From Thermoanaerobacterium xylanolyticum LX-11 (GTDB taxonomy: Bacteria; Bacillota; Thermoanaerobacteria; Thermoanaerobacterales; Thermoanaerobacteraceae), in the NCBI RefSeq assembly GCF_000189775.2, contig NC_015555.1, positions 693,001-757,000 of the forward strand: DNA of 64,000 nt, given 5' to 3'. Shown here one piece after another: positions 2,671 through 55,694 of the stretch (the first letter of the stretch is position 1; each line of letters begins with the position of its first letter). The notes under the pieces were generated by a model, which was given only the letters and a program-made list of their open reading frames with translations, was not told the origin of the DNA and searched no databases. The translations under genes were made by a program, and so were the position numbers.

Positions 2671-2784
2671 CATCTATCATTATATTTTTCAAAATTCGCA
2701 AAATATTAATGGGAATTCATGCAGGAATATTAGATTTCATGTAGAATTATAATAATATAGACATAAAGAAAGGAGTTGTATTGT

Positions 2785-3324
2785 ATGAGGATTACAGTAA
2801 GCGGTAGAAATGGTATGGCTGTAACAGAGGGACTTAGAAATGCAGCCATAAAGAGTTTAAGTAAGATAGAGAAGTTTTTTGCGGATGACACAGAAGCACG
2901 TGTTGTTATGAGTGTTCAGAAGAATAACCAGATTGCAGAGGTTACGATACCTTTTAGAGGGATGATATTTAGAGCTGAAGAGGTAAGCGACGATATGTAC
3001 GCTTCGATAGATAATGTTGTTGATAAGCTTGAAAAACAAATACTCAAGTACAAGACGAAACTGAAAAACAATTTTACACCAGAATCAATCAGATTTGATG
3101 TTCAACAGGATTACATAAAAAATGATATACAAGATGAATTGGAGTTTGAAGTTGTAAAGACTAAGAGATTTGCTGTGAAGCCTATGTCTGTACAGGAAGC
3201 TATACTTCAAATGAACCTTTTAGGACATAATTTCTTTGTATTTACGAATTCGGAGACAGACGATTTTACAGTTGTGTATAAGAGAAAAGACGGTAAATAT
3301 GGATTGATAGAGCCGACAATGTGA
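2785..3324 (+). CDS. hpf: Ribosome hibernation promoting factor, long form
   Basis: Binds the 30S decoding region and pairs 70S ribosomes into inactive 100S dimers in stationary phase. The 179-residue length is that of long HPF. The N-terminal RaiA/S30AE domain (about residues 1-100) begins 'MRITVSGRNGMAVTEGLR'. The C-terminal dimerisation domain is seen as VKTKRFAVKPMSVQEA...QMNLLGHNFFVF...DFTVVYKRKDGKYGLIEP. ATG 2785 sits 9 bases after AAAGGAG (2769-2775); an in-frame TTG at 2776 directly abuts that site and is unlikely. A TATAAT at 2748-2753 may be the -10 box. A strong terminator follows, so the gene is monocistronic. secA downstream is a common neighbourhood for hpf in Firmicutes, although here other genes lie between. 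Confidence 0.95.
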   Translation: MRITVSGRNGMAVTEGLRNAAIKSLSKIEKFFADDTEARVVMSVQKNNQIAEVTIPFRGMIFRAEEVSDDMYASIDNVVDKLEKQILKYKTKLKNNFTPESIRFDVQQDYIKNDIQDELEFEVVKTKRFAVKPMSVQEAILQMNLLGHNFFVFTNSETDDFTVVYKRKDGKYGLIEPTM

Positions 3325-3329
3325 AGAAA

Positions 3330-3363
3330 AATTGAGGGTTATAAAAAAACCCTCAATTTTTTT
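3330..3363 (+). terminator. Rho-independent terminator of hpf
   Basis: AATTGAGGGTT / AACCCTCAATT perfect stem with an A-rich loop, followed by a T run. Starts 6 bases after the hpf stop. Confidence 0.93.
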
Positions 3364-3450
3364 ATGCGATAAAGAAGGAAAATAGAATTTTTTGTAGAAT
3401 ATTATTCCTGTATGTGTAAAAGTTGATTGAAAAAATGGAGTGTGAGCACG

Positions 3451-4092
3451 TTGGTTGAATTTACAAAAGAAGTTATCAATTCTATGGAAGAATTGATAAA
3501 TAGGGTACAAAGCGTAATATCAAGTAGGGTTATAGCTGAAAACGGTCAGATTGCGGAGATTCATGTTTTAGCTGATACATCAAGAAATGCGAAGCAGATT
3601 GCAAGAGATGTACAATCGGTTTTAATGGCTGAGTTTAAAGTAGACGTAAACTACAAGATAATTAGCGTTGCACAGGTGGAGACAAGTGGCAGATACTATA
3701 ACGATGAGAGGATTGCTTTTGCAAATTTAACGTTTGCCAACAATGGAGTGAACTTAGAAGCAACCGTTGTCCTTACAAAGGGTTCTGAAATGTATGAAGG
3801 TGTATATAAAGGTGTAAATACAGAGAGGAATAAAAACAGGATAATCGTAAATGCTACACTTGAGTGTGTATCCAAAATACTTCCAGATGATCACAATCTC
3901 ATTTTAGAAGATGTTGATATATATTCTTTTGCCAAAAAGCGTATAGCCATAGTCGCAGTGACACACGCGACGCCTCAAGGCGAGGAGCTTCTTGTAGGCT
4001 CCAGCATTGTAAAAAAAGATGAAGGTGAAGCACTTGTTAAAGCAACATTAGACGCTTTAAACAGGCGTGTCATTTCGACAGTCGATAATTAA
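3451..4092 (+). CDS. Conserved protein of unknown function
   Basis: I do not recognise a named function. The 213-residue product is soluble, without signal peptide or membrane segment. It appears to have two alpha/beta halves. The first includes 'AEIHVLADTSRNAKQIARDV', then MAEF.VDVNYKIISVAQVE, which recalls uncharacterised regions seen in clostridial and Chloroflexi proteins. The second begins 'IAFANLTFANNGVNLEATVV' and contains RKRIAIVAVTH-like strands. TTG 3451 is preferred because TGGAGTG (3436-3442) lies 8 bases upstream; an in-frame TTG at 3427 would add 8 residues without a good ribosome binding site. It lies alone between hpf and a signalling gene. Confidence 0.7.
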   Translation: MVEFTKEVINSMEELINRVQSVISSRVIAENGQIAEIHVLADTSRNAKQIARDVQSVLMAEFKVDVNYKIISVAQVETSGRYYNDERIAFANLTFANNGVNLEATVVLTKGSEMYEGVYKGVNTERNKNRIIVNATLECVSKILPDDHNLILEDVDIYSFAKKRIAIVAVTHATPQGEELLVGSSIVKKDEGEALVKATLDALNRRVISTVDN

Positions 4093-4105
4093 ATAGCTTA
4101 TTTTT

Positions 4106-4280
4106 TACCCAAACCTTTATTAAGCGTAGCGTTTCGCCTGAAGCTTGAGAAGCTTGAGAGCATCTTTGGTAAAGGAGGGTTTCAGGATGAAAAAAGCAAC
4201 AATCATAAAAGTACTTCTTGCTTTATTGGCATTAGCACTTGCTGGTGGTGCAAACTTATCTTGGCAATGAGGTTTGGGTA
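4106..4280. repeat. 11-bp inverted repeat bracketing a tiny peptide gene
   Basis: TACCCAAACCT at 4106-4116 and its exact complement AGGTTTGGGTA at 4270-4280. Between them lie a tandem GAAGCTTGA repeat (about 4139-4157), the ribosome binding site AAAGGAGGG (4171-4179) and a 27-codon ORF whose stop codon overlaps the right arm. AAACCTTTA in and next to the left arm could also pair partly with the ribosome binding site, so two alternative folds are conceivable. Confidence 0.6.
4187..4270 (+). CDS. Small hydrophobic peptide, 27 residues
   Basis: A 27-codon ORF starting ATG 4187, 7 bases after a near-ideal AAAGGAGGG. The product starts MKKATIIKVLLALLALALAG and ends GANLSWQ. The N-terminus looks like an export signal or a single short membrane helix, with a 7-residue polar tail. 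I cannot name a family. It lies 32 bases upstream of the HD-GYP membrane protein gene, so it may be a secreted signal peptide, a membrane regulator of that protein or a leader peptide. No Cys is present, so a thiolactone autoinducer is unlikely. Confidence 0.6.
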   Translation: MKKATIIKVLLALLALALAGGANLSWQ

Positions 4281-4302
4281 GATGTTTTTATAGGAGGTTA
4301 TC

Positions 4303-5577
4303 ATGTTAAATAGAAAAGTAAAAACTTTTATGTCAATTGTAATAACATTAGGCTTATTAGTGATAGTGTATTCTATTTTAAATATAAACTACAATAAAAT
4401 ATTTGAAACGGTAGTTTTGGGTATACTAGCCGCTGCAACAGAGTCACTTCCTGTGTATATAAATAAGGATATTGCAGTTTCTGTTGGATATGCTATAGAC
4501 TTAATGGCTGTAATTATACTTGGTTTTCCAAATGCTATTATAGTAGCAATATTGGGTATGATTTTACAGATAGCAGTTGATGAGAATAAGAATATAAGGA
4601 CAATTTTAAACAGACCGTATTATAAGACTTTATTTAACATTTCTCAAATATCAATTAGTGTTTTTGTTGCCAGTTTAGTTTATAAATATTTAGGTGGAGT
4701 AAGTGGTGTTTTTATCTATCCGAAATACATTTTTCAAGCTATTGTTGCAGCCATTGTATATTATTTTCTGAATAATATATTGGTGACGATTTTAGTTTCA
4801 ATGTTAGTGAATAAACCTTTTTTGAAGACTTGGACTAAAGATTTTAGCTGGATGATGACCAATTTCTTATTTTTAGCATTTATAGGTATATTGATGGCGT
4901 CTTCTTTTATTGCATATGGTTATATAGCGCTTTTAATCTTTTTTGTGCCACTCATCATGGTAAGGTATATGTTTAAATTAAATATGGAGTTAAAACAGTC
5001 TTATTATGACACTATAAATGCCCTTACGAAGGCGTTAGAGGCCAAAGACAGATACACTTTGGGACATTCTAAAAGCGTTGAAAAATTAGCCGTTTATCTT
5101 TGCAGGGAAGCTGGATTCAGTGAGGCACATACTGAAATGGTGCGGATAGCTGCGCTTTTGCATGATGTAGGCAAGATAGGCATCGTTGAAAATATTTTAA
5201 ATAAGCCTGGAAAACTATCAAAAGAGGAATATGACCATATCAAACAGCACCCTGTAAGCGGTTATGAGATATTGAAAGATGTGCCTTTCTTAAAAAACGT
5301 AAGGTATTGGGTTAGGTATCACCATGAATGGTACAATGGAAATGGCTATCCCGATGGTATAAGCGGAAGGCAGATACCTCTGGAGGCAGAGATACTGGCT
5401 ATTGCAGACGTGTTTGATGCGCTTGTATCAGATAGACCTTACAGAAACGCCTATACGAGAGAAGAAGCGTACAAGATAATAGTTGATAATGAAGGTACGC
5501 AGTTTAGCCCGAGAATAATAAAACTTTTCAAAAAAGCATACGAGAAGAATAAGGAGGATTTCAAACATGATTTTTGA
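4303..5577 (+). CDS. Membrane-anchored HD-GYP domain protein (putative c-di-GMP phosphodiesterase)
   Basis: Probable signalling phosphodiesterase. The first ~220 residues of 424 are hydrophobic helices forming an N-terminal sensor-like membrane domain (MASE-type in position, not assigned). The C-terminal 200 residues are an HD-GYP domain: HSKSVEKL..., 'AALLHDVGKIGIVENILNKP', GKLSKEEYDHIKQHP, then 'VRYHHEWYNGNGYPDGI' and FDALVSDRPYR. The HD metal pair and the HHExxxGxGYP hallmark are both present. RBS AGGAGG precedes ATG 4303. The downstream gene overlaps by 11 bases, and the 27-residue peptide ORF lies just upstream. HD-GYP proteins typically hydrolyse c-di-GMP; activity here is inferred. Confidence 0.88.
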   Translation: MLNRKVKTFMSIVITLGLLVIVYSILNINYNKIFETVVLGILAAATESLPVYINKDIAVSVGYAIDLMAVIILGFPNAIIVAILGMILQIAVDENKNIRTILNRPYYKTLFNISQISISVFVASLVYKYLGGVSGVFIYPKYIFQAIVAAIVYYFLNNILVTILVSMLVNKPFLKTWTKDFSWMMTNFLFLAFIGILMASSFIAYGYIALLIFFVPLIMVRYMFKLNMELKQSYYDTINALTKALEAKDRYTLGHSKSVEKLAVYLCREAGFSEAHTEMVRIAALLHDVGKIGIVENILNKPGKLSKEEYDHIKQHPVSGYEILKDVPFLKNVRYWVRYHHEWYNGNGYPDGISGRQIPLEAEILAIADVFDALVSDRPYRNAYTREEAYKIIVDNEGTQFSPRIIKLFKKAYEKNKEDFKHDF

Positions 5578-6130
5578 TTCTCTTGGTGCTTCATTTATAT
5601 ACGGCTTTTTATTAAGGAGAGGAAAATTAAGCGGCATTGCCGACATAGATATAAAGATGCCTATTTTTTTTATACTTGGCTTTGGACTTGAGTTCGGAGT
5701 GCTTAATCTAACGGATAAATATCCAATCATAATGACGTATAGAGCATACATACATTTTTTGGATTATTTGATGCTTTTTATAGGATTGTGGTACAATCGA
5801 CATAACAAATACATGAAAATAATATCTATAGGCATTATTTTAAATTTCATAGTCATTTTCGCAAATGGTGGAAGGATGCCAGTATCGATTAATTCTCTTA
5901 AAGCGGCAGGTATCGGCTATTTAGTGCCTGAGCTTACAAAAAACATCATTCCAACCCATCAAGCTATGACTTCATCTACGAAGCTTAAATTTCTGTGTGA
6001 CATTCTTTACCTGCCAAAGCCGTATCCTCTTCCAAAGACTTTCAGCGTAGGTGACTTATTTATAGCAACTGGGATTTTTCTAATGGTTTCAAATGCCATG
6101 ATAAATGCCTCTAAGAGAGTTAAAATATAA
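5567..6130 (+). CDS. DUF5317 family membrane protein
   Basis: Integral membrane protein of unknown function, 187 residues with about five hydrophobic helices. The segment 'FANGGRMPVS' is the hallmark I associate with DUF5317. Translation starts at ATG 5567 within the end of the HD-GYP gene (11-base overlap), with AAGGAGG just upstream. The two are therefore translationally coupled and may act in the same signalling pathway; this is inference from arrangement only. Confidence 0.75.
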   Translation: MIFDSLGASFIYGFLLRRGKLSGIADIDIKMPIFFILGFGLEFGVLNLTDKYPIIMTYRAYIHFLDYLMLFIGLWYNRHNKYMKIISIGIILNFIVIFANGGRMPVSINSLKAAGIGYLVPELTKNIIPTHQAMTSSTKLKFLCDILYLPKPYPLPKTFSVGDLFIATGIFLMVSNAMINASKRVKI

Positions 6131-19897: not shown

Positions 19898-19924
19898 ATT
19901 TAGAATTGAATAAACCAGTGGAGA

Positions 19925-20046
19925 ATATCTTCAGGGCAGGGTGAAATTCCCGACCGGCGGTAAGCGTAAGCGAGCCCGCGACCCGCAGATGCGGTGGACT
20001 TGGTGAGATTCCAAGGCCGACAGTACAGTCTGGATGGAAGAAGATT
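19925..20046 (+). promoter_or_regulatory. FMN riboswitch (RFN element)
   Basis: Matches the highly conserved RFN core: 'TCAGGGCAGGGTGAAATTCC', CGACCGGCGGTA, 'AGCCCGCGACCCGCAGATGC', GGTGGACTTGGTGAGATTCC, then AAGGCCGACAGTACAGTCTGGATG. The closing P1 stem pairs ATATCTTC at the 5' side with GAAGAAGAT at the 3' side. It senses FMN and shuts off the riboflavin transporter downstream through the terminator at 20064. Confidence 0.97.
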
Positions 20047-20063
20047 TATTTTTGTTGCTTTTA

Positions 20064-52199: not shown

Positions 52200-52224
52200 G
52201 TTTAGTAATTTAATAATAAAATCT

Positions 52225-52295
52225 TATCCGCATATAATCTGGTGAATAGGCACTGGAGTATCTACAAAGAGCCGTAACTCTTTACTATGGGGAGT
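52225..52295 (+). promoter_or_regulatory. Purine riboswitch, guanine type
   Basis: Fits the xpt-like guanine aptamer: CATATAATCT, loop L2 GAATAGGC, 'GGAGTATCTAC', P3 AAGAG / CTCTT around CCGTAA, then ACTATGG. Helices P1 (TCCGCA/TGGGGA, one mismatch), P2 (CTGGTG/CACTGG, two wobbles) and P3 can be drawn. The C in the closing ACTATGG marks guanine/hypoxanthine rather than adenine specificity. The P2/L2 sequence is somewhat divergent, so the ligand needs testing. Confidence 0.88.
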
Positions 52296-52314
52296 TATTG
52301 TTGTACTCTTTTTT

Positions 52315-55473: not shown

Positions 55474-55497
55474 TGTGTCAGGACAAGTAAATAATAG

Positions 55498-55564
55498 CTC
55501 ATATAATTCTGAGAATACGGCTCAGAAGTCTCTACCAGACAACCGTAAATTGTCTGACTATGAG
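55498..55564 (+). promoter_or_regulatory. Guanine riboswitch aptamer (first of a tandem)
   Basis: A clean purine aptamer: P1 CTCATA / TATGAG, J1-2 TAATT, P2 CTGAG / CTCAG with loop AATACGG, junction AAGTCTCTACC, P3 AGACAA / TTGTCT with loop CCGTAAA, then GACTATGAG with the guanine-specific C. No terminator lies between it and the next aptamer, whose P1 starts within its last two bases. Confidence 0.93.
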
Positions 55565-55694
55565 TGAAAGTGTACCTGAGGGTTCCAGTCTTATTTGTTC
55601 ATGCTTTTGAAAGCTTAAAGGCGTTCGGACCGAGCGGTACAGGCATTGTATTGCCACACCTGTGGGATAAAAGCCCGGGAGGATAGGTTTCACT
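55563..55694 (+). promoter_or_regulatory. PRPP riboswitch (ykkC subtype 2b), second of the tandem
   Basis: Carries the ykkC core: GTACCTGAGGGTTCCAGTC, 'CGGACCGAGCGGTACAGGC', CACACCTGTGGGATAAAAGC and CCGGGAGGATAGGT. P1 closes AGTGAAA (55563-55569) with TTTCACT (55688-55694). Tandem guanine-PRPP arrays of this kind are established in Thermoanaerobacter relatives, where PRPP turns genes on and guanine turns them off. The 2b assignment rests on the tandem context; ppGpp (2a) is the alternative. Confidence 0.87.

Follow-up and report, generated by a model that had tools for sequence, protein, structure and literature searches.

A conserved micropeptide gene with a structured leader RNA upstream of MASE9-HD-GYP genes: a candidate signal for a membrane c-di-GMP enzyme

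Short hydrophobic peptide precursors with a signal-peptide-like N-terminus, encoded beside the gene of a presumed receptor, are known from the SHP/Rgg, Phr and NprX pheromone systems, in which the receptors are cytosolic RRNPP/Rgg regulators. The micropeptide gene described here shares this arrangement, but its neighbour encodes a membrane c-di-GMP phosphodiesterase, its tail is mostly just 4-5 residues long, and no family model matches it above cut-off. To our knowledge, few of the signals read by membrane c-di-GMP enzymes have been identified, and we know of no ligand for the HD-GYP sensors with an S-component-like domain; a conserved micropeptide beside such an enzyme is a concrete and synthesizable candidate signal. 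A second precedent is AcrZ which, in the available portion of the literature on it, is a tiny hydrophobic protein that modulates its large neighbour AcrB, and compared with which the micropeptide has a shorter hydrophobic run, a fixed operon position and a structured leader RNA. Leaders that sequester the Shine-Dalgarno (SD) sequence, both riboswitches and protein-binding leaders, combine covarying stems with bases conserved in the loops and pairing over the SD, as does the leader found here, but this one has no Rfam 15 match, has a micropeptide gene behind it and is closed by an outer helix that encloses the whole ORF.

On the sensor side the comparison is with the 5TMR/LytS-type receptors. 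In its available portion, the article of Partipilo and Slotboom (PMC11109136) describes the S-component fold in 5TMR sensor kinases, where an extra helix 0 is present, and also in GGDEF/EAL fusions. The predicted model of the protein studied here likewise has a helix 0, a six-helix S-component-like domain and a cytosolic output, but the output is HD-GYP, a term absent from the text of PMC11109136, and the same portion of that article describes no partner micropeptide.

The micropeptide gene and its neighbours

The locus lies in a window of 64,000 nucleotides from Thermoanaerobacterium xylanolyticum LX-11 (contig NC_015555.1), and its features are collected in Table 1. A preliminary description had proposed a 27-codon hydrophobic peptide with a near-ideal ribosome binding site, bracketed by an inverted repeat and followed 32 bases on by a membrane HD-GYP gene. 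This proved exact to the base: the frame runs from the ATG at 4187 to a TGA ending at 4270 behind the SD GGAGG at 4174-4178, the repeat has TACCCAAACCT as its left arm (4106-4116) and AGGTTTGGGTA as its right arm (4270-4280), and the ATG of the HD-GYP gene at 4303 lies 32 bases past the peptide stop.

Table 1. Features of the micropeptide locus, in window positions
Feature	Position	Strand	Basis or remark
raiA-type gene	2776-3324		upstream of UPG
UPG, conserved gene of unknown function	3427-4092	+	sequence searches, predicted model
P1 outer helix, 5' arm	4104-4117	+	centroid fold, comparison of loci
Leader motif AGCGNAGCG, here AGCGTAGCG	4123-4131	+	conserved among leaders
SD/start-region helix, 5' strand	4137-4146	+	competes with small hairpin 4141-4155
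Shine-Dalgarno GGAGG	4174-4178	+	read from sequence
SD/start-region helix, 3' strand	4177-4186	+	centroid fold
Micropeptide gene, MKKATIIKVLLALLALALAGGANLSWQ	4187-4270	+	dN/dS, profile, geometry
P1 outer helix, 3' arm	4269-4282	+	short T run after, 4285-4289
MASE9-HD-GYP protein, 424 aa	4303-5577	+	membrane domain like an S-component, preceded by helix 0; then HD-GYP domain
DUF5317 protein (third module gene)	5567-6130	+	

The 27-codon ORF is a real gene. A codon comparison of 19 distinct peptide sequences from family f1, to which the window's peptide belongs, gave a dN/dS of 0.29, and clear matches to the peptide occur in 65 of the 299 genomes of the phylum; a chance ORF is ruled out by these two results, and conservation of the peptide in relatives, proposed earlier as a check, is borne out by them. 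Within the same 19 sequences the core (0.246) and the tail (0.255) have equal dN/dS, both kinds of change being more frequent in the tail, which gives no sign of diversifying selection there. Profile A1, of which the window peptide is itself a row, has a single match in its own genome (E 3e-13). The peptide profile (21 rows) matched 77 of the 299 genomes at E<=0.05, of which we kept the 65 that combine an E-value of about 1e-3 or better with a short open frame, each genome having one clear copy; the weaker matches fall mostly within long frames, but four of them (G088, G202, G246 and G267) lie where the peptide would be expected, G088 being placed from its coordinates alone. Among the first ten relative loci the peptide lies 5' of the HD-GYP gene in nine (L002-L005 and L007-L011), the tenth, L006, beginning inside the gene, and the close relatives of families f1, f2 and f3 all have it wherever the upstream DNA is covered (L067 begins inside the gene).

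The surroundings of the peptide were examined in 60 of the 65 genomes, G000, G003, G007, G010 and G020 being left out as their loci were already covered. UPG lies 5' of the peptide in 59 of the 60 loci, and in 55 a frame matching HD-GYP starts no more than 170 bases past the stop codon of the peptide; in the other five the contig ends at the peptide (L155, L157, L159 and L168) or the MASE9 frame is short (L166). DUF5317 follows in 50 of the 60, and RaiA is found upstream in 45. The frame is thus kept where the HD-GYP/DUF5317 pair is kept, as the preliminary description had supposed, with HD-GYP after 55 of the 60 peptides and four of the exceptions at contig ends.

The same association is seen from the side of UPG, which is present in 116 of the 299 genomes, 51 of them without a kept peptide match. 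We read the DNA 3' of UPG in 40 of these 51 and left out the other 11. Wherever MASE9-HD-GYP comes next (11 of 11 loci) a diverged micropeptide missed by the profile is present, and at the UPG loci with covered DNA but no HD-GYP next the profile finds no peptide (0 of 27); of the remaining two, L189 has the peptide and its contig ends just after, and L208 is too short to judge. Six of these 12 diverged peptides (L172, L179, L183, L189, L190 and L198) were called by eye, with profile scores that are not significant. A fixed ORF rule, which asked for an SD, 18-32 codons, an early K/R, no D/E and 8 hydrophobic residues in a row, was run blind on the two sets and returned candidates in 9 of the 12 loci compared with 0 of the 27, recovering three of the six peptides called by eye.

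A few loci depart from the usual layout. In L009 (4001-5270) the HD-GYP gene seems to be split into two frames with the peptide intact, and the peptide is likewise intact in L166 despite the short MASE9 frame. At least two tandem ORFs matching HD-GYP follow the peptide in L119, L124, L130, L140, L144, L160, L161, L163, L167 and L170.

Peptide layout and the predicted receptor-like domain

We compared 100 distinct peptides of 19-31 residues, many of which are closely related, so that the counts that follow cover related rather than independent peptides. A small-residue motif is present in 86. In 71 of these 86 the last K/R lies exactly 12 residues ahead of the GG, with a hydrophobic run of 11 residues between them. 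The tail after the motif has 4-5 residues, again in 71 of the 86. The tail contains Trp in 68 of the 86 (18 tails have none) and K/R/H in 60, and an acidic residue occurs in only 5 of the 100 peptides. This layout would correspond to the n-h-c regions of a signal peptide whose mature part is minute.

Searches of Pfam, NCBIfam and PDB sequences returned nothing significant for the peptide, and three members had no match in PHROGs. All 42 members of set A8 scored under the cut-offs of the known pheromone models of NCBIfam and Pfam; below threshold, two members weakly resembled NCBIfam NprX (best E 0.039) and one weakly resembled Phr (E 0.14). Our search of the open literature, which covers few subscription papers and no bioRxiv preprints, showed nothing among the top matches listed on this peptide, on the combination of MASE9 with HD-GYP or on DUF5317. 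The micropeptide family is widespread and, by these family and literature searches, apparently undescribed; with it come a peptide family that Pfam and NCBIfam do not match and a structured RNA unmatched in Rfam, both of a size that is easily overlooked.

In the window's HD-GYP protein, MASE9 (PF20972) is matched at 51.1 bits against a cut-off of 24.3 and HD_5 at 138.7 bits against 27.2. Its predicted model (pLDDT 81.5, from nine sequences) has HD-GYP structures as its top fold matches, and residues 28-208 resemble the S-components of ECF transporters: TmRibU at Z 14.5 (rmsd 2.9, 159 of 170 residues aligned), followed by BioY at 13.4, FolT at 13.2 and ThiT at 11.4-11.6. The Foldseek E-value for the TmRibU match is weak (0.05), and since Z-scores of 13 can be reached by chance for helical bundles, the call rests on the many S-components that rank together. 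A further helix, helix 0, is predicted ahead of the fold at residues 4-26. The modelled MASE9 domain resembles the six-helix S-component fold, a ligand-binding receptor fold, and the predicted resemblance by itself shows no function.

The UPG family has no match among Pfam models. The model of the UPG protein (pLDDT 84.6) has an N domain similar to the C-terminal domain of CDF proteins (MamM, Z 9.6) and a C domain similar to the regulatory domain of citramalate synthase/LeuA (Z 10.1), both Z values being moderate. Because of this LeuA-like regulatory domain in the model, UPG may bind a small molecule.

The leader RNA and the outer helix

Between UPG and the peptide, many loci share GAGCGNAGCGG, a hairpin with the loop UAGCGGA, the sequence ACCGU and a G-rich SD. 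A first covariance model, built from six sequences, matched 26 of 69 loci; a second, built from those 26, matched 51 of 87 at E<=0.1. The 51 leaders (49 distinct) have a covariation of 0.515 compared with 0.210 in shuffles, a value reached in 0 of 500, and 148 double-change cells compared with 49.5 (SD 5.3), with slid controls at or below 0.123; the alignment was fitted to the structure, so these counts lean towards it. The P4 hairpin is 98% paired and has double changes in 6 of its 6 pairs, the least regular helices being the one that covers the SD (71% paired) and part of P2 (70%). Two MAFFT alignments, A2 (24 leaders, P4 misaligned) and A3, were excluded from the counts. We rejected a single pseudoknot model of P2 against the SD helix, as the 5' strand of the latter, judged by eye, is nested outside P2 or lies between P2 and P4 depending on the lineage; the covariance model represents the nested form only and covers part of the family poorly.

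Searched against the 299 genomes, the leader model matched 41, once each, and a peptide lies beside the match in all 41. In 35 of these, by coordinates, the leader match ends 1-20 bases before the match to the peptide profile; the other six are loci with diverged peptides. The model misses the element of the window itself and the other f1 loci given to it. The window leader is a diverged form in which AGCGUAGCG is still present and CCUGAAGCUU forms a helix with GGGUUUCAGG at the SD and the start codon; in the centroid fold CCTGAAGCTT (4137-4146) is paired with GGGTTTCAGG (4177-4186). The preliminary description had suggested that part of the left repeat arm could pair with the ribosome binding site. 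That pairing can form in the window, but the centroid fold uses 4137-4146 instead, and by eye the pairing is lost in L069, L073 and L074.

The raiA RNA and other Rfam families were rejected as identities for the leader: Rfam 15 gave nothing at E<=5 for window positions 3900-4500, and at gathering thresholds the window and 12 relatives gave only riboswitches and tRNAs elsewhere, none at this site. The matches elsewhere in the window include an FMN riboswitch (19923-20049) and two purine riboswitches (52210-52307 and 55479-55580). The leader RNA is structured and conserved, pairs over the SD and is apparently undescribed. In the L120 and L127 leaders and in L145, additional motifs of the AGCGGAGCGG type occur upstream of the core, resembling a multi-site protein-binding element.

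The outer helix P1, formed by the repeat arms, is part of the centroid fold of the window (Table 1). The extra stability of the whole segment relative to shuffles is only modest and not significant (z = -1.53, with 17 of 200 shuffles folding as well), and because of this the case for the arms rests on comparison between loci. There, 57 of 65 loci have a long-range helix between leader and post-stop DNA that ranks above the 95th percentile of their shuffles. In 55 of 78 loci P1 outdoes every one of 40 shuffles, compared with 2 of 78 when an interval 80-138 bases downstream serves as the control (four contig-edge loci are left out of this count). The expectation that both arms would be conserved in relatives holds for their pairing but not for their sequence, which varies by lineage (ACCCAAACC/GGTTTGGGT, GGCCGACA/TGTCGGCC, GAAGCCGGT/ACCGGCTTC and GGTTACTGTGGCCGG/CCGGTCACAGTAACC). 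In L172, L179 and L183 the strand bias is flipped, with the G-run before and the C-run after the peptide; in these loci at least one shuffle does as well, and they stay outside the count.

The 3' arm of P1 mostly begins within 35 bases of the peptide stop, and in 31 of the 78 loci the 8 bases after it include 5 or more T. Because of this T run, P1 may terminate transcription in some species, and in others it may serve to shield or insulate this stretch. The scan of the window for compact terminators found none.

The micropeptide as a candidate signal, and rival explanations

The peptide also occurs in loci that lack UPG or the leader. Among 19 further MASE9 loci, eight have HD-GYP. The peptide is present and UPG absent in three of these (L211, L215 and L217), L226 has UPG and a peptide called by eye, L218 and L219 offer a TTG-start ORF that is doubtful as a peptide, and in L213 and L220 we looked for a peptide and saw none. 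The other 11, in which no HD-GYP domain was detected in the MASE9 frame, have no convincing peptide, and because of this it appears that MASE9 in general does not need one. In the Aerophobetes, the phylum of locus L011, the peptide was found in 9 of 17 genomes searched, with HD-GYP beside it in eight and the ninth at a contig edge. UPG was not found in the covered DNA of L070, L071, L011, L211, L215, L217 or the Aerophobetes-type loci, and the leader model had no match in the 17 loci searched that have the peptide but not UPG. On this comparison UPG and the leader are dispensable for the link between peptide and HD-GYP. Tandem copies of the peptide gene, spaced by 122-183 bases, occur in G330 and G334 (two each) and in G338 (three); they are identical within G330 and within G338, and one copy in G334 runs on without an early stop. 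Such copies suggest that the dosage of the peptide product matters.

Taken together, the loci free of UPG and leader and the tandem copies argue that the peptide is the product and HD-GYP its partner. We give a probability of roughly 0.5 to the reading in which this product acts on the MASE9 sensor, as an exported signal or a bound ligand; it draws on the coding evidence, the conservation, the linkage, the two RNA elements seen by covariation and the predicted MASE9 fold. The micropeptide would belong to a membrane signalling module with MASE9-HD-GYP and DUF5317 and, as its functional product, would probably be inserted into the membrane or exported. Its short tail, usually with a Trp, would be tethered or cut to about 4-8 residues and could bind the S-component-like MASE9 domain as a ligand or act as its partner, a contact that might set c-di-GMP breakdown by the HD-GYP domain. 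Behind UPG, the SD-pairing leader would hold translation of the peptide down, with the long helix closing the entire leader-plus-ORF segment, and the leader RNA may sense a ligand or a protein.

The preliminary description had offered two options for the peptide, a secreted signal read by the membrane domain and a leader peptide with switchable RNA structure. The peptide geometry, the receptor-like MASE9 fold and the tandem copies favour the first, in which export, processing and binding are putative steps; even by the standard of pheromones the tail is short, which counts against an exported signal. The main reading also has against it the 18 of 86 tails that contain no Trp, the equal dN/dS of tail and core, which gives no sign of diversification, and the two MASE9-HD-GYP loci in which no peptide was seen (L213 and L220). 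More tentative, and well below even odds, is the full scheme in which an exported micropeptide under an SD-pairing RNA is read by an S-component-fold domain that switches HD-GYP, in a system old enough to extend from clostridia-like Bacillota to Aerophobetes, with the UPG protein or a metabolite as a possible input to the RNA.

The strongest rival, although we consider it unlikely, would make the peptide a small and permanent subunit in the membrane which folds, stabilises or assembles MASE9-HD-GYP or DUF5317, instead of an exported signal. The constant linkage to HD-GYP, usually with DUF5317 as well (50 of 60 loci), would suit such a subunit, as would a hydrophobic peptide with K/R/H in its tail (60 of 86), but a hydrophobic run of 11 residues (71 of 86) is short for a spanning helix, and the identical tandem copies of G330 and G338 would be unusual for a 1:1 subunit.

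The leader-peptide option, in which translation of the ORF under RNA control switches transcription or translation of HD-GYP with P1 or a local hairpin as the terminator, seems to us improbable. A structured leader does pair over the SD by prediction, and the 3' arm of P1 usually begins within 35 bases of the stop with a T run in 31 of 78 loci, but 47 of the 78 have no such run. In L070 a terminator-like hairpin lies in the gap between the peptide and HD-GYP, and in the loci without UPG and leader match a simpler attenuation of another kind is conceivable. L070 also has two boxes that to the eye are perfect extended -10 elements (TGATATAAT), one 5' of the peptide and the other before HD-GYP, which would perhaps make HD-GYP independent of the peptide transcript; the -35 regions match at only 3 of 6 positions, and the promoter scan there found no site at its threshold. 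Conservation at the amino-acid level, tandem duplication and the want of a run of any single control codon also speak against a leader peptide, and attenuation through Trp control codons is excluded by the 18 of 86 tails that have no Trp. Because the peptide and HD-GYP persist together without a leader match or UPG, the peptide is more than a part of the leader; this weakens a purely leader-peptide reading, of which the structured leader is the part that stands.

A dual-function small RNA, in which the RNA enclosed by P1 would be the main product and the peptide secondary, is very unlikely: its strong covariation and closed-end architecture would fit this, but 17 loci keep the peptide without UPG and without a match to the RNA model, and every genome matched by that model has an adjoining peptide (41 of 41). 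A type I toxin-like peptide silenced by 5'-3' fold-back of its mRNA, for which hok, ldr and ibs are the comparison among short hydrophobic peptides, is hardly credible, since the hydrophobicity and shortness of the peptide, its paired SD, the long-range 5'-3' helix and the tandem copies are set against a fixed position beside the same enzyme in many families, a single clear copy per genome in the 65 genomes, only two weak promoter-like sites on the minus strand of 3300-4500 (both within UPG) and three members with no PHROGs match.

As a minor observation on c-di-GMP in these genomes, a c-di-GMP-I riboswitch lies near the module in L136 (5130-5216), on the opposite strand.
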